Below are positions 7,048-49,200 of a stretch of DNA of 64,000 nucleotides, in pieces; position 1 is the first letter of the stretch; each line of letters opens with the position of its first letter. Below the pieces are notes generated by a model. It did no database searches and had not been told where the DNA came from. It was given only the letters and a program-made list of their open reading frames with translations. Origin of the DNA: Baekduia alba (GTDB lineage: Bacteria; Actinomycetota; Thermoleophilia; Solirubrobacterales; Solirubrobacteraceae). A program made the translations under genes and the position numbers. Location: the NCBI RefSeq assembly GCF_028416635.1, contig NZ_CP114013.1, positions 4,092,001-4,156,000 on the forward strand, in the 5' to 3' direction.

Positions 7048-8625
7048 CTAGACCGGGTAGACGCCGTTGCGGCGCACGTGGGGCTCGGCGGGGCGACGGC
7101 GGTAGAGCGCGAACCGCGTGATCAGCTCGTCGCGCAGCGCGTCGCCCTGGACGACGGCCTCGACCGCGTTCTCGTTGGCGATCTTGAGCACGTCGATGTC
7201 GGCGTCGTACTCGGCGCGCAGCTCGGCCTCGACGCGAGCTCGCTCCTCGGGGTCCTCGATCGCCGCGAGCTTGTTGTAGTGAATGGCGTTCACCGCGGCC
7301 TCGGGACCCATCAGCGCGGGCTTGGCAGTCGGCAGCGCCAGGACCGCATCAGGGCCCATCGGGCTGCCCGACATCGCGAGGTACCCGCCGCCATAGGCCT
7401 TGCGCACCAGCACGGCGATCCGCGGCACCCGGCTCTCGGCGACCGCGAAGAGCATCTTGGCGCCGTGGCGGATGATGCCGTCGCGCTCGACCGCACTGCC
7501 GATCATGTACCCGGCGATGTCCACCAGGAACAGCAAGGGGATGTTGAAGGCGTTGCAGATCCAGACGAAGCGGGCGGCCTTGTCGGAGGAGTCCGAGAAG
7601 AGCACGCCGCCCTTCTGGGTCGGCTGGTTGGCGATGATGCCGACGCTCTCGCCGCCCAGCCGGGCGAAGCCCGCCGTCAGCTCCCGCGCGAACAGCGGCT
7701 TGTAGGCGAAGAAGCTGCCCTCGTCGACCACCGCCTCGATGAGCTCCTCGATGTCGAACGCCTGGGCCTCCCGGACCGGCACGATCTCCTCGACCGGGCG
7801 CGCGTCGGCGCGCGGCGGGCGCGCCGTCACGCGCGGCGGCCGCTGATCCCAGCGACTCGGCAGGTAGGAGAGCCAGACGCGCAGCGCCGCGATCGCCTCC
7901 TCCTCGGTGTCGACCAGCAGGTCGCCGAGCCCGGACACCGTGCAGTGCATCTCGGCGCCGCCCATCTCCTCCAGCGTCACGCGCTCGCCGGTCACCATCT
8001 CGGCCTGGCGTGGCGCACCGAGGTAGGCCGTGGCGTTGCCGCGGACCATCACGGTGTAGTCGCACAGGGCGGGCACGTAGGCCGAGCCCGCGGGCGACGG
8101 GCCGAACAGCGCACACACCTGCGGCACGCGCCCGGAGACCTGGATCTGGTTGTAGAAGATGTTGCCCCACGCGCGACGGCCGGCGTAGCTCTCGAACTGC
8201 TCGTCGATCCGCGCGCCCGCTGCGTCGACGAGGTAGATCAGCGGCGCGCCGATCTCGTCCGCCAGGTCCTGCATGCGCGTGATCTTCTCGAAGGTGCGCT
8301 TGCCCCACGTGCCCGCCTTGACCGTGTAGTCGTTGGCGATGACGCAGACCTCGCGCCCGCCGATCGTGCCGACACAGCACACGACGGCGTCGCCGGGCAG
8401 GCCCTCGGCCGATCGCGCGAGGAGCCCGTCCTCGAACGACGGCTCCTCGTCGAGCAGCAGGGCGAGGCGGTCGCGGACCAGCAGCTTGCCCGCGGCCTGG
8501 TGGCGTTCGCGCTGCTTGGCCGGGCCACCGAGGAGCGCGGTCGCGACGACGTCGGCGACCCGCTCATGGACGGTCCGAACGTCCTCCTGGTCGACGTCGG
8601 CGGGCGGCGGGACGGTCGTGGACAT
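7048..8625 (-). CDS. Biotin-dependent acyl-CoA carboxylase, carboxyltransferase (beta) subunit
   Basis: 525 residues with both crotonase-like carboxyltransferase halves. Seen: AGARIDEQFESYAGRRAWGN and the GPSPAGSAY oxyanion loop in the N half, then KGGVLFSDSSDKAARFV, FLVDIAGYMIGSAVERDG and KAYGGGYLAM in the C half. It transfers CO2 from carboxybiotin to an acyl-CoA. GGAEMHCTVSG resembles the GGADxHCxxSG of methylcrotonyl/geranyl-CoA carboxylases more than the propionyl-CoA type, a hint rather than proof. The start (ATG 8625) overlaps the MaoC stop. Its alpha partner is encoded divergently at 10679-12493. Confidence 0.92.
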   Translation of the reverse strand: MSTTVPPPADVDQEDVRTVHERVADVVATALLGGPAKQRERHQAAGKLLVRDRLALLLDEEPSFEDGLLARSAEGLPGDAVVCCVGTIGGREVCVIANDYTVKAGTWGKRTFEKITRMQDLADEIGAPLIYLVDAAGARIDEQFESYAGRRAWGNIFYNQIQVSGRVPQVCALFGPSPAGSAYVPALCDYTVMVRGNATAYLGAPRQAEMVTGERVTLEEMGGAEMHCTVSGLGDLLVDTEEEAIAALRVWLSYLPSRWDQRPPRVTARPPRADARPVEEIVPVREAQAFDIEELIEAVVDEGSFFAYKPLFARELTAGFARLGGESVGIIANQPTQKGGVLFSDSSDKAARFVWICNAFNIPLLFLVDIAGYMIGSAVERDGIIRHGAKMLFAVAESRVPRIAVLVRKAYGGGYLAMSGSPMGPDAVLALPTAKPALMGPEAAVNAIHYNKLAAIEDPEERARVEAELRAEYDADIDVLKIANENAVEAVVQGDALRDELITRFALYRRRPAEPHVRRNGVYPV

Positions 8626-9065
8626 CAGGCGGCCGCCCGGTTCAGGAGCAGGGTGTTGTCGAAGGTCATGACTTCCTCTTCGCGCTGGTTGACGACGGAG
8701 TAGTGCAGCCGGCAGACGTCGCGCTCGCCGCGGGCGGCGGGGCGCAGCTCGGCGACGCGGACGCGCGCGCGGATCGTGTCGCCGAACCGGACCGGCGCGC
8801 TGGCGCGCACGCCGTCGAGGCCGAGCCAGGCGACGACGTTGCCCGTGAACACCCCGCACTGCGTGACGAGGCCGAGCGCGAGCGCGAGCGTCAGCGGACC
8901 GTGCGCCACGCGCTCGCCGAAGGCCGACTGGGCCGCCGCCTCGGCGTCGGTGTGCAGGGCGACCCAGTCGCCGGTGAGCCCCGCCCAGCTGACCACATGG
9001 GTCTCGGTGACGGTGAGCGCGGCGCTCTCGAACTCTTGATCAATGACGAATGTCCACGGAGGCAC
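8625..9065 (-). CDS. MaoC-like dehydratase (hot-dog fold)
   Basis: About 146 residues with the hot-dog hydratase signature: DWVALHTDAEAAAQSAFGERVAHGPLTLALALG, where the Asp/His of the hydratase-2 motif and the HGPLT turn are clear. MaoC-like proteins hydrate enoyl-CoAs (R-specific) or dehydrate hydroxyacyl-CoAs. GTG at 9065 gives the conventional N-terminus; TTG at 9086 would place the start inside the operator at 9083-9098. The gene lies between acyl-CoA ligase and carboxylase beta, and its own operator suggests an internal regulated promoter. It may act on the unsaturated product of the carboxylase. Confidence 0.85.
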   Translation of the reverse strand: MPPWTFVIDQEFESAALTVTETHVVSWAGLTGDWVALHTDAEAAAQSAFGERVAHGPLTLALALGLVTQCGVFTGNVVAWLGLDGVRASAPVRFGDTIRARVRVAELRPAARGERDVCRLHYSVVNQREEEVMTFDNTLLLNRAAA

Positions 9066-33130: not shown

Positions 33131-34078
33131 ATGTTGCGTCGCAAGATCATGATCATGGTCGGTTTGGCCAGCCTGTCGTTGGCGGCCGTGACCGCGGCCC
33201 AGGCCGCTGAGTGCCCGCCGCCACCGCCGTCGGACTGCCGACCGGCGGACGGCTCGCTCGACTGCCTGACGCCCTACGCCCGCGGGGTGATGTATGGGAA
33301 CGCGCCAGCGGTGTCGCCGGTGTACTACTGGCGCCTGGGCGAGGACCTCGACTTCGCGCTGGACTGGATGCAGGGCGTCGGCTCCACGCTGGACCTCGGC
33401 AGCCAAGTGCAGCGATCCCAGCCGGGCGCGTTGGCGTGCGACGAGGACGGGTCGGTCGCGCTGTCGGGCGCCGTTTCGGACCAGGTGTGGGAGAGCCATC
33501 TCGTCGGCGACCCGGATGGCGTGCGCGCCGCCGCGCCGGGCACGGCGCCGTTCGGCCTGGCCATCTGGGTCAAGCCGAACCGGCTCGACGCCAACTCGCG
33601 CCGCATCATGGGGCACGAGCTGCCGGCCGGCGGCTACTTCCTCGCGGCGCGCAGCGACCGGCTGAGCTTCACGCGGTACGAGCACGGCGACGGCTCGTCG
33701 CACGAGGACACGATCGCCCTGTCGCACGGGCTGCCGAACGACCGCTGGTCGTTCGTCGTCGCGACCTACGACGCCGACCATGTCATGCATCTCTACGTGG
33801 ATGGCGTCCAGGTGGCCGAGGGCGACTCCAAGCTCGCGCTTCCGGACGATCCGTCGTGGGACTTCGAGCACGGCGAGCCAGCGGGCACCGGCCGGCTGGT
33901 CCTCGGCGCGAGCGGTCGGTCCTACGACGCCCGCGTCCCGACGTCGCGGATGTACCTCGAATGGGACGGCGGGCTCGACGAGGCCGCGTTCTACGGCGAC
34001 CGCATCCCGGAGGCGTCGGATGTCGACCGGCTGTGGCGCATCGGCACGACCGGCTGGTCGAGCGACCTGCCCGGATAG
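33131..34078 (+). CDS. Secreted LamG-like (concanavalin-type) domain protein
   Basis: 315 residues. The signal peptide is KIMIMVGLASLSLAAVTAAQA with cleavage near residue 26, then a Pro/Cys-rich segment (ECPPPPPSDC) and a jelly-roll domain: YYWRLGE, FGLAIWVKPNR, GYFLAARSDRLSFTRYE, NDRWSFVVATYDADHVMHLYVDG, GRLVLGASG, and LEWDGGLDEAAFYGDR at the end. This order (trace of a LamG_3 fold) is usual for secreted carbohydrate- or surface-binding proteins. Stands alone; no enzyme domain is attached. Confidence 0.8.
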   Translation: MLRRKIMIMVGLASLSLAAVTAAQAAECPPPPPSDCRPADGSLDCLTPYARGVMYGNAPAVSPVYYWRLGEDLDFALDWMQGVGSTLDLGSQVQRSQPGALACDEDGSVALSGAVSDQVWESHLVGDPDGVRAAAPGTAPFGLAIWVKPNRLDANSRRIMGHELPAGGYFLAARSDRLSFTRYEHGDGSSHEDTIALSHGLPNDRWSFVVATYDADHVMHLYVDGVQVAEGDSKLALPDDPSWDFEHGEPAGTGRLVLGASGRSYDARVPTSRMYLEWDGGLDEAAFYGDRIPEASDVDRLWRIGTTGWSSDLPG

Positions 34079-34307
34079 CGCGCGTCGAGCTCCCGGCTCG
34101 GTCAGCCGCCGGCCGGTTGCAGGCGGACGACGGTCGCGCCGAGTGCCGCTCGGGTCGCGGTGCTGCTCACACCCTCGCGCCACGCATCGCGCCCCTTGGG
34201 ATACGACGGTCATAGCCGTCACCGGCGACATGGGCTTCACGGACGAAGACCTCGCCGCCCTCAGAGAACCCTGGCCCATGGGAGCCGTTGGCCCCGGATT
34301 CGCCGGG

Positions 34308-34329
34308 TTTCAGGCACTCGTGCCTGAAA
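34308..34329. repeat. Short-loop hairpin (arm repeat, copy a)
   Basis: Perfect 10-bp inverted repeat TTTCAGGCAC / GTGCCTGAAA with a 2-nt loop. It resembles the short hairpins at 55729-55742 and 59867-59880 that flank the tRNA-His-like modules. Confidence 0.7.
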
Positions 34330-34373
34330 CGCCGAAGGCATACAACTCGTCCGCGGATGCAGCTGGAAGTCGC

Positions 34374-34481
34374 GATTTGCAGGGCATTTCTTGAGCCGGT
34401 CCGGCCGGGTGGCGCGAAAAAGCACCCGTGGATTACGGGCGATTCCGGACGGTCTAGGCACTGCTGGCGCTCGAGTGCCTG
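34374..34481 (+). repeat. Arm repeat, copy b
   Basis: Begins GATTTGCAGGGCATTTC, contains GGATTACGGGCGATTCCGG and ends with AGGCACT-(11 nt)-AGTGCCT. Related copies: 55312-55424 (minus), 55893-55999 and 60032-60137 (plus). No tRNA-like sequence is recognisable beside this copy. Confidence 0.65.
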
Positions 34482-36199
34482 TAATCAGACCGGTCGCCTA
34501 TGAGCGCCGTGTGGTCTCGTGAGACCAGCACATGGGCGGCGTTCCCGGCCAATCGCTCCGTCTGAGGGGTCTCATGAGTCTTCGGGCAGCAGGCCCAGCA
34601 ATGTGCGGCGCTGGGCATTGCGCTCGGCGAGGGTCGCCTTGAGCGCCCAGGTGGCAGCCAGCTCCGAGTCTGCGGCCTCGACCCGCGGCGTACCAGTCGG
34701 GTTCGCGAACCGATGACGGATGTGCGATGAAGGCGTCTGAGGCTTCCTGGAGGCGATCTGTGTAGCCGTGAACGATCGCCTCGTGATGCCATGGCAGCAG
34801 CGGGCCCTCGATCGCATTGCCGATCGCCCGGACAAGCTGTTGAGCGCGCTGCGAGTCAACATTGACGATGACGGGATCTTCCTGCCGTGCCAGCGCGGCG
34901 CGCACGGTCGCAAGGCCCCGGCCGTGTTCACCGCCGCCAAGGCTAGACACCGGGCGCAGCCCCGGGTCATCCCCACGGCAAGCCGCACGCGGACACATCT
35001 ACCGTCCCAGGCACGACATCCACCCGCTCTCACAGCACGTGGACCGAAACTGAGGTCGCCCACTCAGCGCCCGGCCCGGGTGCACGAGTCACGACACTGC
35101 CCGAGGGCCTTTGCTGGACAGTTCGACGCGCAGGTCACCGACGAGAACGCCGCCGGCTGCAGTCCCGGCTCGTCGTCGAGGCCGCGGCGGCCGACCGCCG
35201 GCTCGCGGCCCGGGAGGGACCTCCTCGTCGTGCCCGACGTGCTCGCAACGGCAGCGGCGTCACGGCCTGCTACTTCGAGTGGGTGCAGAGCCCACCAGAT
35301 GTACGCCTGGGACCTCACCGACATCCGGTGCGCGTCCGACACGGATGCATCTGGCGCTGGACAAGCGTCCTCGACGCGGCAGAACGCCACGACGTCGACT
35401 GGCGCACGGCGGCGCCGACGTCGCGGTCGACCGCGACGCGCAGGCGGCGCGCTGGCGCGGCTGCGCGCCGTCCACCCCTGGAGCCGGTCGCGCCGATCCG
35501 TGTTGCGCGCGGATGTCATCGGCAGGCGCAAGCCGCCAGCCCATTTGGGCCAAGCGCCGCTGCGCCGAATCCCGGGTTTGCAGTCGCAGTCGGCTTCGCC
35601 GAATCGTCCGACGAAGGCACATTTGATCACCGACCCCCGCACGCATACCTTGTCGCGCTCACTTCTCCCCCTCTTCTTCGCCCTCGCGCCTAGCGCGCAA
35701 CATCTCTCCCACAGCACAAGCTGCTGGGCCCGCCTCAGCCAATTCGTGACCGCCGAGACTCCCTCGCGGCTTCACGATCGATCCCCGCTGACTCGAGACC
35801 TTCGACGCCCGGCGCCGGATGCCTCGACGCGACCATGAACGCGCGTCCCGTAGCTCGCCAGCGGGTGGACGCTCGGGTACAACGCACCGAGCCCCGCCCG
35901 CCTCATCCTTTCCGGTCACGACACGGCTGAGGCTTCTCTACCCACCGAGCAACGTGCGCTCTCTCGTAGGTCGACTCGACCCCGGAACGGCGCATCACGC
36001 CCCCCGTCAGCACCCGGCCAGCAGGGCCCGGCGCCGGCAGCACAGAGAAAGGACCCGTGCCGGTCCAATGAAAACAGCGCCACGTCCCGTCTCGGCGCGG
36101 GGTCCACCCGCACCGACACGCGCCGTGCCGAGGCTGGCACGTGCCTCGCCTCATACGGCAAAGCAGGACGGACAACACAAACACCAAGGAAGGTCTGAC
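34482..36199. other. Gene-poor stretch
   Basis: About 1.7 kb with no gene I can support. Two minus-strand frames between 34570 and 34990 look partly protein-like (QRAQQLVRAIGNAIEGPLLP and, in another frame, LAATWALKATLAERNAQRR), compatible with a frameshifted helical protein of unknown family. The rest is shadow-like. The 5' untranslated region of the radical SAM gene lies at the end, with AAGGAAGG upstream of its ATG. I looked for a short precursor-peptide gene next to the radical SAM gene and found none. Confidence 0.4.
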
Positions 36200-37264
36200 A
36201 TGACGACTGTGCAACGGCACACGAAAGCCGAGGACGATCAACAGCAGCCGCCCGCCCTCCACGGCGCCGCGCTGGAGTTCGTGTGGCTGGAGCTGACCGG
36301 CAAGTGCCAGCTGCAGTGCACGCAGTGCTACGCCGAGAGCGGCCCCTCGGGCACGCACGGAACGATGAGCGACGAGGACTGGATCAGGGTCATCGACCAG
36401 GCCGTCGGCCTGGGTGTGGGGATGGTGCAGTTCATCGGTGGTGAGCCGATGCTGCACCCGGCGCTCGGGACGCTGGTCGAGCATGCCCTCGACCAAGGCG
36501 TCGCCGTCGAGGTGTACAGCAACCTGGTTCACGTACCCAAGCACCTGTGGACGATCCTGTCGCGCGAGGGGGTACAGCTGGCCACATCGTGGTACACCGA
36601 CGACCCGGGCGAGCACGCGCAGATCGTGGGGCGCCCGACCCACCGGCAAACGCTGGCCAACATCCAGCTCGCCCAGTCGCTGGGCATCCCGCTGCGCGCC
36701 GGAGCGATCCGCCTTGCCAACGACCAACGCATCGAGCACGGCGTCAACCAACTGCACACGCTTGGCGTGTCGCAGGTCGGCGTCGACGACCTGCGCGGCG
36801 TCGGTCGCGGTGCAATAGGCGCCGAGCCTGACCTCAGCGCGCTGTGTGGGCAATGCGCCAACGGGCGCGTGGCAATCCTGCCCGACGGCTCGGTCTCGCC
36901 GTGCGTGTTCTCCCGCTGGGACCAGATGCACGTCGGCAACGTCCGCCGGCAATCACTGACCGACATCGTCGCCGGCACTCCTCTCACCACCATCCGCCAA
37001 GAGCTCCAAAACCACTTCAACACGAGCACCGCACCCGTGGGAGTGTGCGACCCCAACGGCGCCTGCAGGCCGAACACACCCCCGCCGGGGTGTCGCCCCC
37101 AAGTCCCGAGCTGCCTGCCCGACAGGCCGCATCCGGTTGCGGACCCGGCGGAGCAGGCGCCCGCCCGGTCCGCATGCGAACCCGGTATCTGCGGCCCTGG
37201 CACACGGCATTGCAAGCCCGTAGCGCCGACGTGCCTTCCTGACAAGCCACATCCCGTCAACTGA
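36200..37264 (+). CDS. Radical SAM/SPASM protein with Cys-rich duplicated tail
   Basis: 354 residues. CQLQCTQC (Cys36/40/43) is the CX3CX2C cluster motif binding [4Fe-4S] and SAM; VQFIGGEPMLHP is the GGEP motif. The SPASM-like region has LCGQCANGRVAILPDGSVSPCVFSRWDQMHVGN. SPASM enzymes usually modify peptides or proteins. Residues 283-354 form an unusual tail with eight Cys and a duplicated unit (CRPQVPSCLPDRPHPV and CKPVAPTCLPDKPHPV). ATG 36200 follows AAGGAAGG. The gene stands alone, with no recognisable precursor peptide, and is closed by a strong terminator. The tail may carry extra clusters, bind metal or act as a built-in substrate. Confidence 0.88.
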   Translation: MTTVQRHTKAEDDQQQPPALHGAALEFVWLELTGKCQLQCTQCYAESGPSGTHGTMSDEDWIRVIDQAVGLGVGMVQFIGGEPMLHPALGTLVEHALDQGVAVEVYSNLVHVPKHLWTILSREGVQLATSWYTDDPGEHAQIVGRPTHRQTLANIQLAQSLGIPLRAGAIRLANDQRIEHGVNQLHTLGVSQVGVDDLRGVGRGAIGAEPDLSALCGQCANGRVAILPDGSVSPCVFSRWDQMHVGNVRRQSLTDIVAGTPLTTIRQELQNHFNTSTAPVGVCDPNGACRPNTPPPGCRPQVPSCLPDRPHPVADPAEQAPARSACEPGICGPGTRHCKPVAPTCLPDKPHPVN

Positions 37265-37309
37265 CCGCCGTCGCCAAGCTGCTTCACCTCGGCACGGCTG
37301 AGCGTGCCC

Positions 37310-37341
37310 GCACCGCCCCCATGAGGACATGGGGGCGGTGC
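37310..37341 (+). terminator. Terminator after radical SAM gene
   Basis: A perfect 13-bp stem (GCACCGCCCCCAT / ATGGGGGCGGTGC) with a 6-nt GAGGAC loop, 45 bp after the stop. No T-run, as is common in GC-rich actinobacteria. Confidence 0.8.
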
Positions 37342-38246
37342 GCGACCGGTGCTGCCGAGGGCACTGCACGTGCTCGGTCCGATGCGAGAGCCGCGTGACT
37401 CGTGGCGGGGTCTCCCGCGCGATAGAGACGTCGTCGATCCCGCTCATCGGGATCGGCGGCGCCTCGACGCCTCCAAGTCGCGGCCCCGACCGCTCTCTTT
37501 TTTTCTTCTTACATCTTAGTAATCATTTATCCTTGTTGATCTGTAACCGCCGGCAAGGAACGCTCGGGACACGATGCGGCGCTGTCGCAGCGGCGTCGCT
37601 GATGCCGACGATCCAGGGCGTCGTTCATGAGATGGTCGATGCCGGAGGCGTCGGCGTTTCTGCTTGATCCAGCACGCCACACCGGCTTGCGGGCTGACGG
37701 CCGCGTCGCCCCCCAGCGGCGTGTGGCCAGGGGATCTCGCGTCCCCCGGTGATCCCGCTCGGACGCACGATGAGCGCCGCCAAGAGCGCAAGAGCGAGAA
37801 CGAGATTCGCAGTGCTCGACGGAATGTCCAGCCCGGAGACGCCATTGACCTCGGCACGCTGGCACGCGACAACGATCACGGTCATGAACACGCAGCCGGC
37901 AACCGGCCCGGTCACGCTGCGCAACCTCCGACCACCAGCATGGCGATCGACAAGAACGTCAACGGAAAGTAGAAGTCCAGATAGCTAAAAATGAGCACCT
38001 TGGGCGCCCCGCCGCTCATGAGACGGGCCGCCCGCGTCAGGCGGGCGAGACACACGCCTCAGCGTTCGACGCAGCGGATGCCCTCGTGCGCGATAACCCG
38101 GCCTTCCGGACACCCCGCACCACAATGATCAGCTGTAGGTGAGCACAGCCGCTCGTCGCCGGCCTGGGGACCGGCGAGGGCGGTTGCCCACCGGCGAGCC
38201 GCCCGCCTACCTGGAATGCTGGGTACGGCGGGGCGGCGCGCCTTCG
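37342..38246. other. Gene-poor stretch with an AT-rich patch
   Basis: No firm gene. At 37497-37550 there is an unusually AT-rich patch. On the minus strand around 37730-37920 a hydrophobic frame ends NLVLALALLAALIVRPSGI, reminiscent of the C-terminal end of LivH/LivM-type ABC permeases, but too short to be more than a suspected remnant. Confidence 0.35.
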
Positions 38247-38531
38247 CTAGCGTCCCGTCGACACCACCAACTTGCCCGCGACGCGGTCGTGCTCCATGTC
38301 GTCGTGGGCCGTTGCAATCTCGTCCATGGTGTAGGTCTTGGCGATCGGCACCGTCGCCTCGCCGGCGGCGATCGCGTCCAGGAAGTCCTGCAGGACGGCC
38401 GGCGGGAGGTCGAACGCGTCGCCGGAATAGCCGGTGAGGTGCACGCCGTTGGGCAGGAAGCCGGCTGGGTAGAAGTCCGGCACGGTCCACTCGTTGGAGA
38501 GGTAGCCGGTGCTGCAGGCCACGCCGTGCAC
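38247..38531 (-). pseudogene. Zinc-binding dehydrogenase / quinone oxidoreductase, C-terminal fragment
   Basis: 94 codons matching the C-terminal third of medium-chain quinone reductase-like proteins: GYLSNEWTVPDFYPAGFLPNGVHLTGY, LQDFLDAIAAGEATVPIAKTY, and TAHDDMEHDRVAGKLVVSTGR. The catalytic and cofactor-binding N-terminal 220 or so residues are missing upstream, where an AT-rich patch (38600-38650) marks a probable breakpoint. A truncated relic. Confidence 0.75.
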
Positions 38532-42461: not shown

Positions 42462-43202
42462 TCAACGCACGCGCACCGGCGTTCCGGGCGCAAGGCGCGC
42501 GGCGAGCCAGGCGATCAGCTTGTCGTCCATGCGGATGCATCCGTGTGAGCTGGCCGATCCGAGTGGGTCGTTCAGCAGGGGGCCGGCGCGGCCGTGCAGC
42601 GCGACGCGGCCGGGGCCGCCGCCGTAGTTCAACAGGGTGTTGGAGTGCGCGGTGAGGTGCAGGGCCCAGGGGCCGAGCTCGGAGCCGGGCGGTTGGCGGA
42701 CGCGCTCGTAGACGGCGAACAGCCCGGCGGGCGTCGGCGTCTGGTGCGTGCCGACGACGACCGGCCAGCTGCGGATCAGGCGGCCGTCCCGGTAGGCGAA
42801 CACGCGACGCGTGCGGCGATCAACCTCGACGCGCCAGCGCATGCGCGACACCGCTACGCGCGCGGCAACCACCCAGCCCGCGCGCGCGTTGGGCCGGCTC
42901 GGGAGCTCGACCCGCAGCCACCGCCGGCCGGACGCGTCGTGGGCGACGCCGAGGACGAGGAGGTAGACCGAGCCGCCGTTCCACGCCGCGGTGGAGCTGA
43001 TCGCGCCCCGGACTGGCGCGTCGGGGCGCGGCGCGCCGTGCACGGGTGTGGACGCGACGACCCGCGCGCGCCACGCCATGTGGGCGGTCGGGGCGGCGAC
43101 GCGAGCGTCATCGGTCGCGATCGCCGGCGCAGATGCAGACGCCATCCCCAGCAGCGCTGCGAGCGCGACGCCCAGGCCGCCCGCAGCCCTAGCCCGTGAC
43201 AC
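42462..43202 (-). CDS. L,D-transpeptidase (YkuD domain)
   Basis: 246 residues: signal peptide (GLGVALAALLGMASASAPA), an SH3-like region (ARVVASTPVHGAPRPDAP...RWLRVELPSRPNARAGWV), then a YkuD domain: RRVFAYRDGRLIRSWPVVVGT, TPTPAGLFAVYE and the active-site SSHGCIRMDD with Cys222. It makes or remodels 3-3 peptidoglycan cross-links, or attaches proteins to the wall. GTG 43202 overlaps the end of the giant DUF11 gene by 14 bases, so the two are translationally coupled. Confidence 0.9.
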   Translation of the reverse strand: MSRARAAGGLGVALAALLGMASASAPAIATDDARVAAPTAHMAWRARVVASTPVHGAPRPDAPVRGAISSTAAWNGGSVYLLVLGVAHDASGRRWLRVELPSRPNARAGWVVAARVAVSRMRWRVEVDRRTRRVFAYRDGRLIRSWPVVVGTHQTPTPAGLFAVYERVRQPPGSELGPWALHLTAHSNTLLNYGGGPGRVALHGRAGPLLNDPLGSASSHGCIRMDDKLIAWLAARLAPGTPVRVR

Positions 43203-46200
43203 CGCCGCCCCGGGCCGTCTTGACCTGCTGGGCGGCCGCCGTGACGGTCGCCGCGGCTCGCCGGCTGCCGGCGTTGCGCGCGGTCGCGGTCGCGACGTTG
43301 CGGACCGGTCCGCCCGTCGCGCTGCTGCTCAGGCGTGCCGTCAGGCGGAAGGCGCGGCCGTGCCCGGCGCGCAGCATCGCGATGGTCCAGCACGGCCGGC
43401 CGTCACGGAACTTCGCCCCTGGGGCGGAGATCGCGACCAGCCCCGACGGGAGCGTGTCGCAGACGACCACGCCCGCCGCCGCCTGGCGGCTGACGTTGGT
43501 CACGCGCAGGCGGTAGTGGACGCGCTGGCCGACCTGGACGGGCGAGCGCCGCGTCGTGGTCTTCACCAGGCGCAGACGGGCCCGCGGGGCGGTGACCGAC
43601 GTCCCGGTCGAGGAGACGTTGTCGACCGGACGCGCGTCGGCGGCGGCCGAGAGCACGCTGGCGGTGTTGCGCACCGGCCCCGGCGCGATCGGCCGCGTGG
43701 TGACCGTCGCGCGCCGGGTCTCCCCAGCGGGGAGCGTCCCGACGGTGCACCGCACGACGGCGTCGACGGCCTTGCAGGTGCCGCCGGGCAACGATGCCGA
43801 GATGTACTCCAGGTTGGCGGGCAGCGTGTCGGTGACGACGACGCCGGTCGCCGTGGAGCCGCCCGCGTTGGTGACGTCGAGCGCGTAGCGCAGGGCGACG
43901 CCGAGCTGCGGCGCTTCGTTGCTCAGCACCTTCTTGCGCAGCGTCAGGTCGGCGTCCGAGCGGAGCTCCCGATTCGCCGCCGGCGCCCCGACGGTGGTCG
44001 TGGCGCTCGAGCGATCGTTCTCGGCGACCGGGTCGGGCTGGTCGCCGGCGATCGTGGCCGCGTTGGTCAGGACCGCGCCCTGGCGGTCGGCGGCGATCGT
44101 GCCCACCACCTGAATCTGCGCCGCGCCGCCGCTGGCCAGCCCGCCCAGCGCGCACGTGACCGTCGATCCGGTGGCCGTGCACGCGCCCTGGGTCGGCGTG
44201 GCGGAGACCAGCGTCACCCCGTCGGGCAGCGTGTCGGAGACCGTGACGCCGGTGGCGGCCGACGGGCCATGGTCGGTGGCGACGAGCGTCCACGCGATCT
44301 GCCCGCCCGCCGCCGCCACGGCGGGTCCGGTCTTGACGACGCCCAGGTCGGCCGAGGGCCCGACCAGCGTGCTCGCCGATGCCGTGTCGTCGGCCGGATG
44401 GTCGTCGCCCTGGTCGGAGACGACGGTCGCGGTGTTGACGAGCGTCTGATCAGCCAGCGCGACCGGCACGGTGGCGGTGATCGTGCGGTCGGCGTGGTCG
44501 CCGACGGCGAGCGCGCCGACGTCGCAGGTCACGACGCCCGTCGCCTCAGTGCAGCCGGCGTCGGCCGACGCGAACGCGGTGCCGGCGGGCAGCGGATCGA
44601 CGATCTTCACGCCGGTCGCTGGATCGGGCCCGGCGTTGACGACCGAGACCGTCCAGGTCACCGAGCCGCCGGCCGCGACGGTCGCCGGCGCGGTCTTGAC
44701 CAGCCGCAGGTCGGCGACCGGGCCGACGGTGACCGGGGCGCTGGCGCTGTTGGGATCGCCCCCGCCAACCGGCTCGTCCGTGGTCGTCGCGACCGTCGCC
44801 GTGTTCGTCCACGGGCCGTTGACGACGCCGGCGGCGACGACGGTGATCAGCGCGTCGGCGCCTACGGCCATGTCGCCCGGCGCGCAGGTGACGGTCGCGC
44901 CGGCGACGGCGCAGCCCGTGCCCGTCACCGAGACGACGGTCAGACCCGCGGGCATCGGATCGCTGAGCGTCACCGAGCGTGCGACCGACGGACCGGCGTT
45001 GTGCACCACCATGGTGAAGGTGGTCTGGCCGTTCTTGAGGATCGCCGACGGGCTGGCGGCCTTGGTCGCCGACACGTCGGCCAGCGCGGACGGCGACGCG
45101 TTAGACGTCGAGGTGTCGTTGCCGCCGACCGGATCGGTCGTTGTGGTGCTCACCGTCGCGGTGTTGGACAGCGGCGAGGCGACGACGCCGGGATCGACGG
45201 CGACGGTGATGTCGTAGGTGTGGTCGAAGCCGGCCGCGACCGTCCCCAGCGCGCAGGTCACGGTGCCCGCCGTCGCGGTGCACGGCGCGTCGGCCGAGAC
45301 GAACGTGGTCCCGATCGGCAGCACGTCGCTGACCGAGGCCGACTGGGCGTCGGACGGGCCGAGGTTGCGGACGCGCAGGTGCCAGACGTAGTCGGTGCCA
45401 GCGGTGTAGTCCGCCGCGCCCGACTTGACCATCGACAGGTCGGCACGCGTGCTGACGTCCAGCGACCCGGTGTCGCTGACGGGCGTCGGCACCTCATCGG
45501 AGCTCGCCCGGCCGGTGTTGGTCAGCGTGGTCCCGTCGGCGACGTCATGGCCGACCGTGACCGGCACCGTCACGGTGACCGTCGAGCCGGCGGTCAGCGT
45601 CGCGACGGTCCAGTGGACGGTCGTCTCCCCAGCGCCCGGCCCGGAGGCGACCGACGCCTCGCTGAAGCCCGCGCCCGGCGACGCCGTGGCGTCGCCCGCG
45701 GCGTAGCTGAACCCCGCGGGCAGGACGTCGGCGACGTCGACGTTGCGCGCCGTCCCGTTGCCGTTGTTGGTGACCGCCAGCGAGAACGAAGACGTCGCGC
45801 CTGCGTTGACCGCGCCGTGGTCGGGCGTCTTGACGATCGCCAGGTCCGGGAGCTGCAGCGTGGCCGTGGCGGTGTCGGCCGGGCTGCCGTACGCGCCGTC
45901 GGCGTTGCCGGCGTTGCCCGCCTCGTCGGTGGCCGACGTCACCCGGGCGCTGTTGACGTTGGCGTTGGCCGCCGTGCCGGGCGTGGTCGCCGCGGCCGGC
46001 AGCGGCCGGGCGACGAACGTCACCGTCGCGGTGGCGCCGTGCGCCAGCGTCCCGACGTCCCAGTCCAGCTCGTCGCCGCCCGCGTCGGCGGTGATCGTGG
46101 GCTCCTGGGCCCCGCCCGGGGTGATCGTCGCCGAGTTGGCGCGGTAGGCCCAGTTGGGCGGCAGCGTGTCGGTGACGTGGACCGCGCTCGCGGCGGCCGT

Positions 46201-49200
46201 GCCCGACGTGTTGGTGACCGTCAGGCGCCAGGTGAAGTCCTGGCCGACCTCGGCCGTGCCGGTCTTCGCCCCGCCGGAGGCCCCGACGTTCTTGACGGTG
46301 GTGAACGTCGGGAAGTCCAGGACGACCTGGGTGGCGTCGCTGCCCCCGTCGGTGTAGTCCTTGTAGACCGTGCCCGGGTTGGCGGCCCGGGTCGCGCCCG
46401 GCACGGCGAAGTAGTGCGGGATCGCGGCGGTGTTGTCGATCGTCTGCGCGTCGTGCAGTCCGGCGGCCGCCACGAGGTCGGCGGTGTAGGTCAGCGTCAC
46501 GCTCTCGCCCGCCGCGATCGGGCCGGCGATCTGCCACGTGATGTCGGGGTCGCCCGCCGTCCAGCCGTCGCTGACCGTGACGCCCGCGACCGTGGCGACG
46601 TTCACGCCGGTCAGCTCGGCGTCGGGCTGGTCGCCCACCGTCACGTCATAGGCCGGGGCGTCGCCCGTGTTCTTGACGACGACCTGGTAGGTCAACCCGC
46701 TGTCGGACTGCGCCGTGGCCGGGCCGTCGACGAACGCGCCGCCGCCGACCTTGACCTTCTTGTCGATCGTCAGCTTCGGCTCGATGACGGTCACCGGCGC
46801 CGTCGCGACGGTGGAGGTGTCGTCGAAGCCGGTCGGGATGGTGGCCGCGTCGAACGCGCCGACGTTGTTGGTGCGGTTGGTCGCCACCGTGGCCGAGTTG
46901 GTCGGCGTCTGGCCGGCGAGGACCGCCGCGCCGCCGGTGCGGTGCGTGGCGCGCACGTGCGCGGTGTAGGTGAGCTCGATGACCTGCGGGGTCGCCAGCG
47001 GAGAGGCGAAGTCGCCGAGGTCCCAGGCGATCCGCGTCGTCCCGGAGACGACCGGGGTGTAGTGGTTGACCGGGTTGACCAGCGGGCAGCCGCTGATGCA
47101 CGTCTCGGTGCCGTAGGCGTCGAAGTCCAGGCTGTCGGGCAGCACGTCGACCGCCGTCACGTCGAACAGCGCCAGGCTCGACGGGATGGTGACGCGCAAG
47201 GTGTAGGTGATCGGCGCGCCGATGGTCGCCGTGGTCGGGCTGGCCGCCTTGGTGATCGTCGCGCCGACCAGCGTGATCGTGTCGCTCGTGACCGCCGAGT
47301 AGCCGGCGCCGGTCGTGCGCTCGCCGTCGGCGTCGGCGGGCGCGCCGAGGCTCGTGGCGGTGGTAGTGACGGTGTTGACCTTGGTCGCGCCGCCGACGCC
47401 GGGGTCGTCGACCTTCACGCGGTAGGTGAAGCTCGTGCTCGCGCCGGGGGCGAGCGTGCCGATCGCCTTGGTGATCGTGCGCGTGGCGGCATGCCACGTC
47501 GCGCCGCCGGTGATGGGCAGGACGTTGCCGTCGGCCACCGGGGCGTTGCCCGGCGCGGGGTTGATCGGCGTCAGGCCGGCGGGGACGACGTCGGTGAGAA
47601 CGAGGTCGTGGGCGGTCGAGACGCGGCCGGGCGCCGTCGGGTTGGTCGTCGTGACCGTGTAGCTGATGATGTCGCCTGGCGCGGCGCGCGCCGGGTTCTT
47701 GTCGTCGGTCTTGGTCTGGGCGAGCAGCGGCTCGACGATCTGCGTCGTCAGCGTGGCCGACGTGCGCGACTGCGCGCCGCCGACCGGATCGGTCCAGCCC
47801 AACGTCGCCTGGTTGGTGAGGTTGCCGGACGTCCGGGTGTTGGCCGCGACGTCGGCGACCTTCGTGCGGAACGTCAGCACGACCACGTCGTCGCCCGAGC
47901 CCGTGGCGTTGGCGTAGTCGGTGGGGAACACGACCCGCGGCGTCGCGCCGCTGGTGTCCAGCGTGAACGTGCCGGGCAGCGCGACGCCGTTGAGCGTCGC
48001 GGCGGCCGAGCCGCCGACATAGGGCTGGCGCGTCGCGCTGTCGACCGCGTCGGTCAGCTGCGCGGTGCCGTGCAGCGTCGTTCCCGCCGGGACGGTCGCC
48101 GTCAACGTGTAGGTGATCTCTTCGCCGATCGTCGCCTGGGCGTTCGTGTTGCCGCTCTCAGTGATTTCGGTGTCGCGCGCCTTGACGACGCCGGCGTCCG
48201 CGGTGTGGACGTCGCTGGTGTCGTCGGCGGCCGGCGCGTTGGGCGTGGCCGGGTTGCTCGGGTCGATGTTGCCGGCGGGCGTGTAGATGTAGGTCCCGCC
48301 GAGGTTCGTGGCGCCCTCGTACTGGCGCACGCCCGCGTGGTTGAGCAGCGTGCGGCCGGGGCCGACGTCGGTGGGCACCGTCAACGTGTAGGTCAACGTC
48401 GTGGTCGCGCCGGCGGCGAGCGTGGGCAGCGTCCACCGGACCTGGTCGTTGGCGACGCCGCCGTCCACGCACGTGCCACCGTCGCTGATCGGCCCCGGCG
48501 CCAGCGGGCACTGGTAGTCGACGGGCAGGATGTCGCGCACCTCGACGCCGGTTGCGTCCTGCGCGCCGGAGTTCGTGATGTCCACCCGGTAGGTGACCTC
48601 GTCGCCGCCCTGGACTGCGATGTTGTCGTTGTCGGGTCCCAGCGGGCCGACGACCGTGCTGCCGCCGCGGACGACCGTCGCGACCCCCTTGGTCAGCCCG
48701 ACCTCGGGCGTGTCGAGGACGTAGTCGGCCTGGTCGCGCAGCGAGGTGGAGACGCCGGGCGTGTCGGTGGAGGAGAACTTCAGCAGGTTGCCGGTGATGT
48801 CACCGGTCGCCGGGGTTCCGGGCGGCCGCGCGACCGTCGAGAACACGCGCGAGAAGACCTTGTTGCCCGACGGGACGCTGCTGCCGGTGACCGTCCAGCG
48901 CAGGACCTTGTCGGCGGCCGCGGCGCTGTCGTCCAGCGTGGAGGTAACGTTGTGGCCCGGACCTGCCGCCTCGCTACCTGCCTCGTAGTCCGCGCTCGCG
49001 GGCAGGAAGTCGGCCAGCGCCTGCGGCGTCGTGTCCACCGCCGAGGGGAACTTGACCTGCACCCACCAGCAGACGCGATCGCCCGGGTGGTAGTGCGGGA
49101 CCGTGTCGACGTAGGTCGCCACCGAGCAGTCGGTCCCCGCTGCGGCGACCTTCTTGTCGATGACCGGATCGGTGGCGGTCTGCGCCGCGTCGCTGACGTC

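Follow-up and report, generated by a model that had tools for sequence, protein, structure and literature searches.

The window analyzed here, a stretch of 64,000 nucleotides from Baekduia alba, harbors a gene for a radical SAM enzyme with a C-terminal tail that contains eight cysteines, each followed two positions later by a proline (Cys-x-Pro, CxP). The reading frame is intact from the ATG at 36200 to the TGA at 37262-37264. The gene and its immediate surroundings comprise the following features:

36186..36193, plus strand: AAGGAAGG, a Shine-Dalgarno-like stretch 6 nt 5' of the ATG, read from the sequence
36200..37264, plus strand: radical SAM/Twitch enzyme gene, 354 amino acids plus stop, from the ORF listing and translation
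36278..37027, plus strand: predicted folded enzyme core, residues 27-276, from AlphaFold2 confidence along the sequence and conserved columns
Within residues 27-276: core cysteines, with C36, C40 and C43 forming CX3CX2C, and C216, C219 and C235 in the Twitch part
37046..37261, plus strand: predicted disordered tail, residues 283-354, 8 cysteines, all Cys-x-Pro, from AlphaFold2 and motif count
37091..37138, plus strand: unit copy 1, CRPQVPSCLPDRPHPV, residues 298-313, 16 residues
37211..37258, plus strand: unit copy 2, CKPVAPTCLPDKPHPV, residues 338-353, 16 residues
37309..37342, plus strand: possible terminator, a perfect 15-bp hairpin with a 4-nt loop and no T-run

The strong terminator that the first-pass annotation had placed behind the gene can be retained only in part. 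The 15-bp stem is perfect and the hairpin has a fold z of -4.4 (96-nt stretch), but no T-run lies 3' of the stem and the hairpin was missing from a terminator consensus scan. A search of positions 33500-38500 for RNA elements gave no Rfam match. Upstream, positions 33131-34078 (plus strand) encode a protein that starts with a signal-like stretch and also matches a LamG-type domain (PF13385, E 1e-14), and about 2.1 kb without a convincing gene separate it from the radical SAM gene. On the minus strand, at about 43192-46998, lies a 1269-residue open frame of repeats (within the stretch read) that resembles a surface repeat protein and corresponds to L076 15193-18999.

The enzyme core

The window protein matches PF04055 (Radical_SAM; E 6e-13, 49.7 bits against a cut-off of 29.5) and PF13186 (SPASM; E 3e-10, 40.6 bits against a cut-off of 21.5), and the CX3CX2C motif is present. 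When modeled with AlphaFold2 on the family alignment A4 (see below), 222 of the 354 residues, forming the core, reach a pLDDT of at least 90 and the tail lies mostly below 50, in a model from which metals are left out. The best solved folds are SkfB (Z 24.2), SuiB (Z 23.2) and BlsE (Z 21.1), and the top two are both peptide maturases. No family of peptide-recognition (RRE) domains is among the Pfam matches and the barrel is preceded by only about 26 low-confidence residues; since the window protein begins at the radical SAM barrel, an N-terminal RRE as in SkfB is missing. An assignment to the antiviral viperins was considered and rejected (NF038283, 34 bits against a cut-off of 180; PADLOC pVip, 43.8 bits over residues 30-159 only).

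The full SPASM motif, as defined in an excerpt of PMC6231123, has seven cysteines (CX9-15GX4C, CX2CX5CX3C and C) and two auxiliary clusters. The window protein does not contain it: C216, C219 and C235 fit its first part, and the spacing of the tail cysteines (283, 289, 298, 305 and onwards) misfits CX2CX5CX3C. These three conserved residues precede the last helix and are the sole cysteines in the Twitch part before the tail. In all 46 tailed rows of A4, the first tail CxP cysteine follows 39-54 residues past the C235 equivalent. According to the same excerpt, Aux I of SkfB is bound by Cys351 and a CXC after helix alpha2', and in CteB the open site of Aux I is filled by a cysteine of the substrate (PMC6231123). 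By analogy, the first tail cysteine may be a cluster ligand, and the later tail cysteines would not be needed for that role.

Family and distribution

A scan with one genome per species yielded 68 loci, of which 61 (L002-L062) hold close relatives, nearly all actinobacterial; the other seven (L063-L069; weak, mostly Elusimicrobia) were left out of the analysis. Tail counts omit L017, L052, L053, L054, L057, L058 and L059, which are broken, truncated or at a contig end. Alignment A4 comprises 48 of the 58 usable rows, after omission of near copies (L003, L007, L016, L020, L022, L026, L029, L030 and L041) and likewise of L056.

Few genomes of the window's own group have the gene: it was found at E 1e-30 in 3 of 399 genomes of the class sample, and at E 1e-25 in 2 of 146 genomes sampled from the family and in 4 of 396 sampled from the phylum (own genome included in each count). 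None of six other genomes of the genus has it, and it is the sole PF13186 match in its own 5.86-Mb genome. On the tree, it groups with kinase-linked members from Nocardiopsis and Streptomonospora (support 100/95). None of the NCBIfam matches listed for the window protein reaches, or comes near, its cut-off, and searches of open-licence full texts turned up neither an account of the family nor one of any CxP substrate fused to a radical SAM enzyme. Judged by sequence, the tail marks an uncharacterized, mostly actinobacterial enzyme family that carries no NCBIfam name.

The Cys-x-Pro tail

The first-pass annotation had counted eight cysteines in residues 283-354 and noted a repeated unit. Both observations hold: there are exactly eight (283, 289, 298, 305, 326, 331, 338 and 345), all in CxP, a number that 2 of 200,000 shuffled versions of the 78-residue tail reach, and the unit is present as the two 16-residue copies listed above. 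Across A4, 325 of 332 tail cysteines lie in CxP, against 3 of 319 in the body, and residue shuffles within the tails averaged 53 such cysteines and never exceeded 71. In a set of 61 rows, which includes three added loci from one further genus of the same phylum, the count is 401 of 409. The CLPD(R/K)PHPV duplication was not seen among the other family tails listed, and it is the CxP grammar, not this duplication, that the family has in common.

That the tail might be absent or unconserved in close homologues, the first of two objections raised in the first-pass annotation, did not prove to be the case. A tail is present in 46 of the 48 A4 rows, with 1 to 13 CxP motifs, and its length and repeat content vary as that annotation had wished to see examined: across the family the motif number runs from 0 to 13 and the number of tail cysteines from 1 to 14, the x residue is almost free and the spacing between cysteines varies. 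Some tails are very short (one CxP in L039, two in L019 and L055). Two relatives, L072 and L073, have no tail. They are tandem genes of a single genome from the window's class (L074, 533-2261), and no small CxP-rich ORF lies next to them in the 12 kb that were read; the core can therefore do without the tail, possibly acting on another substrate. The tail had no match among PDB sequences.

Several loci carry natural lesions. A deletion in L017 removed the tail together with the start of the AAA gene, L052 has lost part of the SPASM region and retained its tail, and a tail-region deletion in L039 left a single CxP. In L095 an enzyme relative is interrupted, exactly at the border of body and tail, by a transposase-like ORF (about 7660-8760; of the IS30 type by eye), and the tail and a PIMT gene sit beyond that ORF.

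Purifying selection acts on the tail as it does on the body: in Lentzea (7 sequences) pN/pS was 0.215 in the tail and 0.184 in the body, and in the Nocardiopsis group (4 sequences) the values were 0.105 and 0.309, respectively. The two unit copies of the window tail differ from each other with pS 0.65 and pN 0.22 (0.73 and 0.11 in the 10-codon core), and in L040 two 18-residue copies are identical as protein, with 7 synonymous differences and no others over 18 codons. Since duplicated units differ mainly at synonymous sites, the peptide itself appears to be selected and kept, within the limits of estimates on repeat copies that rest on short stretches.

Partner genes and tail content

The first-pass annotation had described a lone enzyme. 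This is accurate for the window gene: a 16-kb scan of its surroundings turned up no kinase, PIMT or AAA partner, and both types of partner are missing from its genome. For the family it does not apply, since 52 of 61 loci are linked to a kinase or a PIMT. A profile search found a kinase of the APH fold in 40 of 61 loci; in 38 of these 40, an AAA ATPase of profile A2 also lies close to the enzyme gene. A PIMT-like methyltransferase adjoins the enzyme in 12 of 61 loci, and neither partner was found in 9 of 61, which include contig ends and broken loci. The AAA ATPase and APH-fold kinase recur as a pair adjoining the radical SAM gene, as at L002 7910-9483 and equivalents; in L002 a PIMT match is present as well, over 6 kb upstream, where the stretch ends. 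Gene order varies, with the kinase and AAA genes on the opposite strand in L010, L023 and L033. A second, distant radical SAM ORF lies in L075 (14756-16096), with about 6 kb between it and the tailed enzyme L071.

The predicted model of the kinase folds like aminoglycoside phosphotransferases; by sequence it had no match in the PDB, and 9 of 15 kinase members matched Pfam APH at E 0.05 or better. Searched against 14 genomes, the kinase profile was found in 11 and was absent from the genome of the lone member L008 and from those of the PIMT-type L036 and L046. Four of the 15 matches were weaker paralogues without a radical SAM family member nearby, which counts against a strict pairing of kinase and enzyme. 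The window genome gave no kinase match, in a search for which the run on 14 genomes serves as positive control, and contained only weak, generic methyltransferase matches and one unlinked AAA paralogue, which suggests that the AAA ATPase is generic. The four PIMT partners scanned against TIGR04188 (ATP-grasp peptide methyltransferase) scored 281.9, 245.6, 210.6 and 255.4 bits against a cut-off of 380. Among neighbors common to at least 4 loci no ATP-grasp gene was recognized by eye, and the neighborhood comparison revealed no conserved peptidase or exporter and no dehydration lyase as a conserved neighbor.

The composition of the tail outside the CxP motif shifts with the partner. A Tyr is found in the last 8 residues at 33 of 37 kinase loci versus 2 of 22 others, and at least two Asp outside CxP at 13 of 14 PIMT loci versus 8 of 45 others; DGC occurs in the tail at 6 of 14 PIMT, 0 of 37 kinase and 0 of 8 lone loci. 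These counts are exploratory, since motifs and cut-offs were picked after the tails had been seen. Contexts change at least 10 times on the tree, and the independent supported pairs (3 for the kinase, 1 for the PIMT) run mostly in the expected direction, are not significant and are too few to reach significance. The window gene, within the kinase-linked group, has neither a kinase nor a terminal Tyr, and L008, a lone member inside a kinase-linked clade, lacks the terminal Tyr as well. Long CxP tails are kept in the window gene, L008, L045 and L071, with neither kinase nor PIMT nearby, and the CxP unit itself is independent of partner type.

Search for a separate precursor

The second objection of the first-pass annotation was that a precursor might be encoded elsewhere in the genome. 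None was found, neither in the window's genome nor as a CxP-rich gene near the 61 homologous loci. On visual inspection the ORFs listed near these loci looked like spurious GC-rich frames, except in L058, where the CxP-rich ORF is the same enzyme gene, split by a frameshift. When the window tail was searched against its own genome, the next best match had E 0.07 and contained a stop. A CxPxCxPxCxP pattern at the DNA level was found in 0 of 3 genomes, a result of little weight as the window's own tail misfits the pattern.

Discussion

Following the observations above, we propose that the tail is a covalently attached RiPP-like substrate that is modified by its own enzyme, a reading to which we assign a probability of about 45%. 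In its predicted fold the core, approximately residues 27-276, resembles SkfB and other radical SAM/Twitch enzymes that modify peptides, but it has no N-terminal RRE; the disordered C-terminal tail (283-354) with its string of CxP units would be its peptide substrate, attached in cis. Most probably, a SAM-derived radical would take hydrogen from the tail, and an auxiliary cluster left with an open iron would bind the tail cysteine thiolates in turn, which would result in cysteine-derived cross-links (thioethers) at several CxP units. In relatives, the kinase could then phosphorylate Tyr or Ser/Thr in the tail, and the PIMT-like methyltransferase could lead to aspartimide at DGC-like sites. Any release of the tail would be a further, conjectural step.

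The first-pass annotation had offered three options for the tail, namely an extra cluster site, a metal-binding module and an internal substrate. The last of these is supported by several computed results: the statistics of the motif, selection at the level of the peptide, the disorder predicted for the tail and the way in which tail content tracks the partner. A self-modifying enzyme would explain why RRE and precursor are both missing, why the tail is disordered, repetitive, strictly phrased and under selection, and why its content depends on the partner; the fold shared with SkfB and SuiB, the graspetide-like PIMT and the substrate cysteine at Aux I of CteB point in the same direction. Several observations weigh against it: the links between partner and tail are post hoc and rest on few independent events, the first tail cysteine lies at the place of the SkfB ligands, no conserved peptidase or exporter was found, and some relatives have very short tails or none.

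The main rival, which we regard as rather unlikely overall, holds that the tail is a cluster or metal module. The Twitch auxiliary cluster would be completed by one or two CxP cysteines at the start of the tail, and those that follow would ligate additional iron-sulfur clusters, or Zn or Cu, with a role in electron transfer or in the handling of metals; the true substrate would be something different. Its cluster component keeps some plausibility, because the Twitch part has only three other cysteines (216, 219 and 235) and the first tail cysteine, 39-54 residues past the C235 equivalent in the 46 tailed A4 rows, lies about where the Twitch ligands of SkfB (Cys351 and the CXC) are found in the excerpted PMC6231123; the substrate and cluster readings may therefore both be partly true. 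Zinc-binding cysteine motifs are also described for cysimiditides, which are likewise PIMT substrates, in an excerpt of PMC13001092. A cluster module is harder to reconcile with a cysteine number of 1 to 14 at variable spacing and with the complete absence of the tail from L072 and L073, and metal binding alone would not require a proline at +2 that is as strict as the cysteine (325/332). Nor would a metal module be expected to change its C-terminal Tyr and Asp content with the partner, and the tail is predicted to be disordered, although AlphaFold2 leaves metals out.

Two further explanations appear improbable. The window gene might be a partnerless relic heading to decay in its own genome, as it groups with kinase-linked Nocardiopsis and Streptomonospora members (100/95) and its genome has no kinase, six relatives (L017, L052, L053, L054, L057 and L058) are visibly broken, and 0 of 6 other genomes of the genus contain the gene. 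However, its frame is intact, the conserved core cysteines are present, all eight tail cysteines remain in CxP, its two tail units differ mostly at synonymous sites, and other lone members retain intact tails. Very doubtful, too, is the notion that the tail, itself unmodified, acts in docking or regulation by recruiting partners or a substrate in trans. Disordered tails often serve docking, and the shift of tail features with the partner would fit; yet long CxP tails persist in the window gene, L008, L045 and L071, which have neither partner nearby, and the CxP unit is the same whatever the partner.

Should self-modification of a built-in substrate be proved, it would be unusual. Enzyme and peptide would form a 1:1 package without leader recognition, in which radical SAM peptide chemistry would be easier to study, and a family would be opened that precursor-based genome mining does not see, since the peptide has no gene of its own. 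If it is metal that the tail binds, the family would instead present a cysteine module of a new and highly repetitive type, attached to a radical SAM enzyme.

Comparison with known systems

Radical SAM peptide enzymes are well known. The closest to the window protein is the sactisynthase SkfB of Bacillus subtilis (PDB 6efn), the best match both by fold (Z 24.2 over 262 residues, 24% identity, rmsd 8.9) and by PDB sequence. The two share the radical SAM barrel and Twitch region, with the last Twitch cysteines at the C-terminal end. SkfB has an N-terminal RRE and a separate precursor, as described in an excerpt of PMC6231123, whereas the window protein starts at the barrel and carries a CxP tail, and it scores 41.5 bits on the SkfB model TIGR04403 against a cut-off of 300. 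Among the NCBIfam matches listed, StsB-type radical SAM/SPASM maturases are best by E-value (8e-17, residues 20-163), at 61.2 bits against a cut-off of 625, but a separate precursor was not found here; on the AlbA model the score is 34 bits against a cut-off of 850.

The aspartimide RiPPs (graspetide-linked, lanthimiditides and imiditides) provide a parallel in their PIMT partner, which also adjoins 12 of 61 family loci, and the DGC-like Asp in PIMT-linked family tails resembles TXDGC, the lanthimiditide core motif according to an excerpt of a review (PMC13001092). Unlike in those pathways, the PIMT is here paired with a radical SAM enzyme, whose tail is the putative peptide; the PIMT scores (211-282 bits) lie below the TIGR04188 cut-off, and the window gene itself has no PIMT partner. 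The likeness to a further group of pathways lies in the APH fold of the partner kinase (40/61 loci). APH-fold kinases occur in RiPP pathways, for example those of class V lanthipeptides, from which the present systems differ in that the kinase has no PDB sequence match and a conserved dehydration lyase was not seen.

Fusion of an enzyme to its substrate is already known from the borosins, in which a methyltransferase is fused to its own core peptide. The proposed shared logic is that enzyme and C-terminal substrate form one chain, with repeats in some members. The borosin enzyme is an alpha-N-methyltransferase, and the excerpted literature gives its chemistry as backbone N-methylation; the window protein is a radical SAM enzyme for which self-modification is only proposed. 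More tentatively than the substrate role of the tail itself, we suggest that this is a widespread family whose members cross-link their own CxP tails in cis, unit by unit, as a radical SAM counterpart of the borosins, with interchangeable APH-fold kinase or PIMT partners that would read target residues encoded in the tail, and that the window member could be its minimal, one-gene form.
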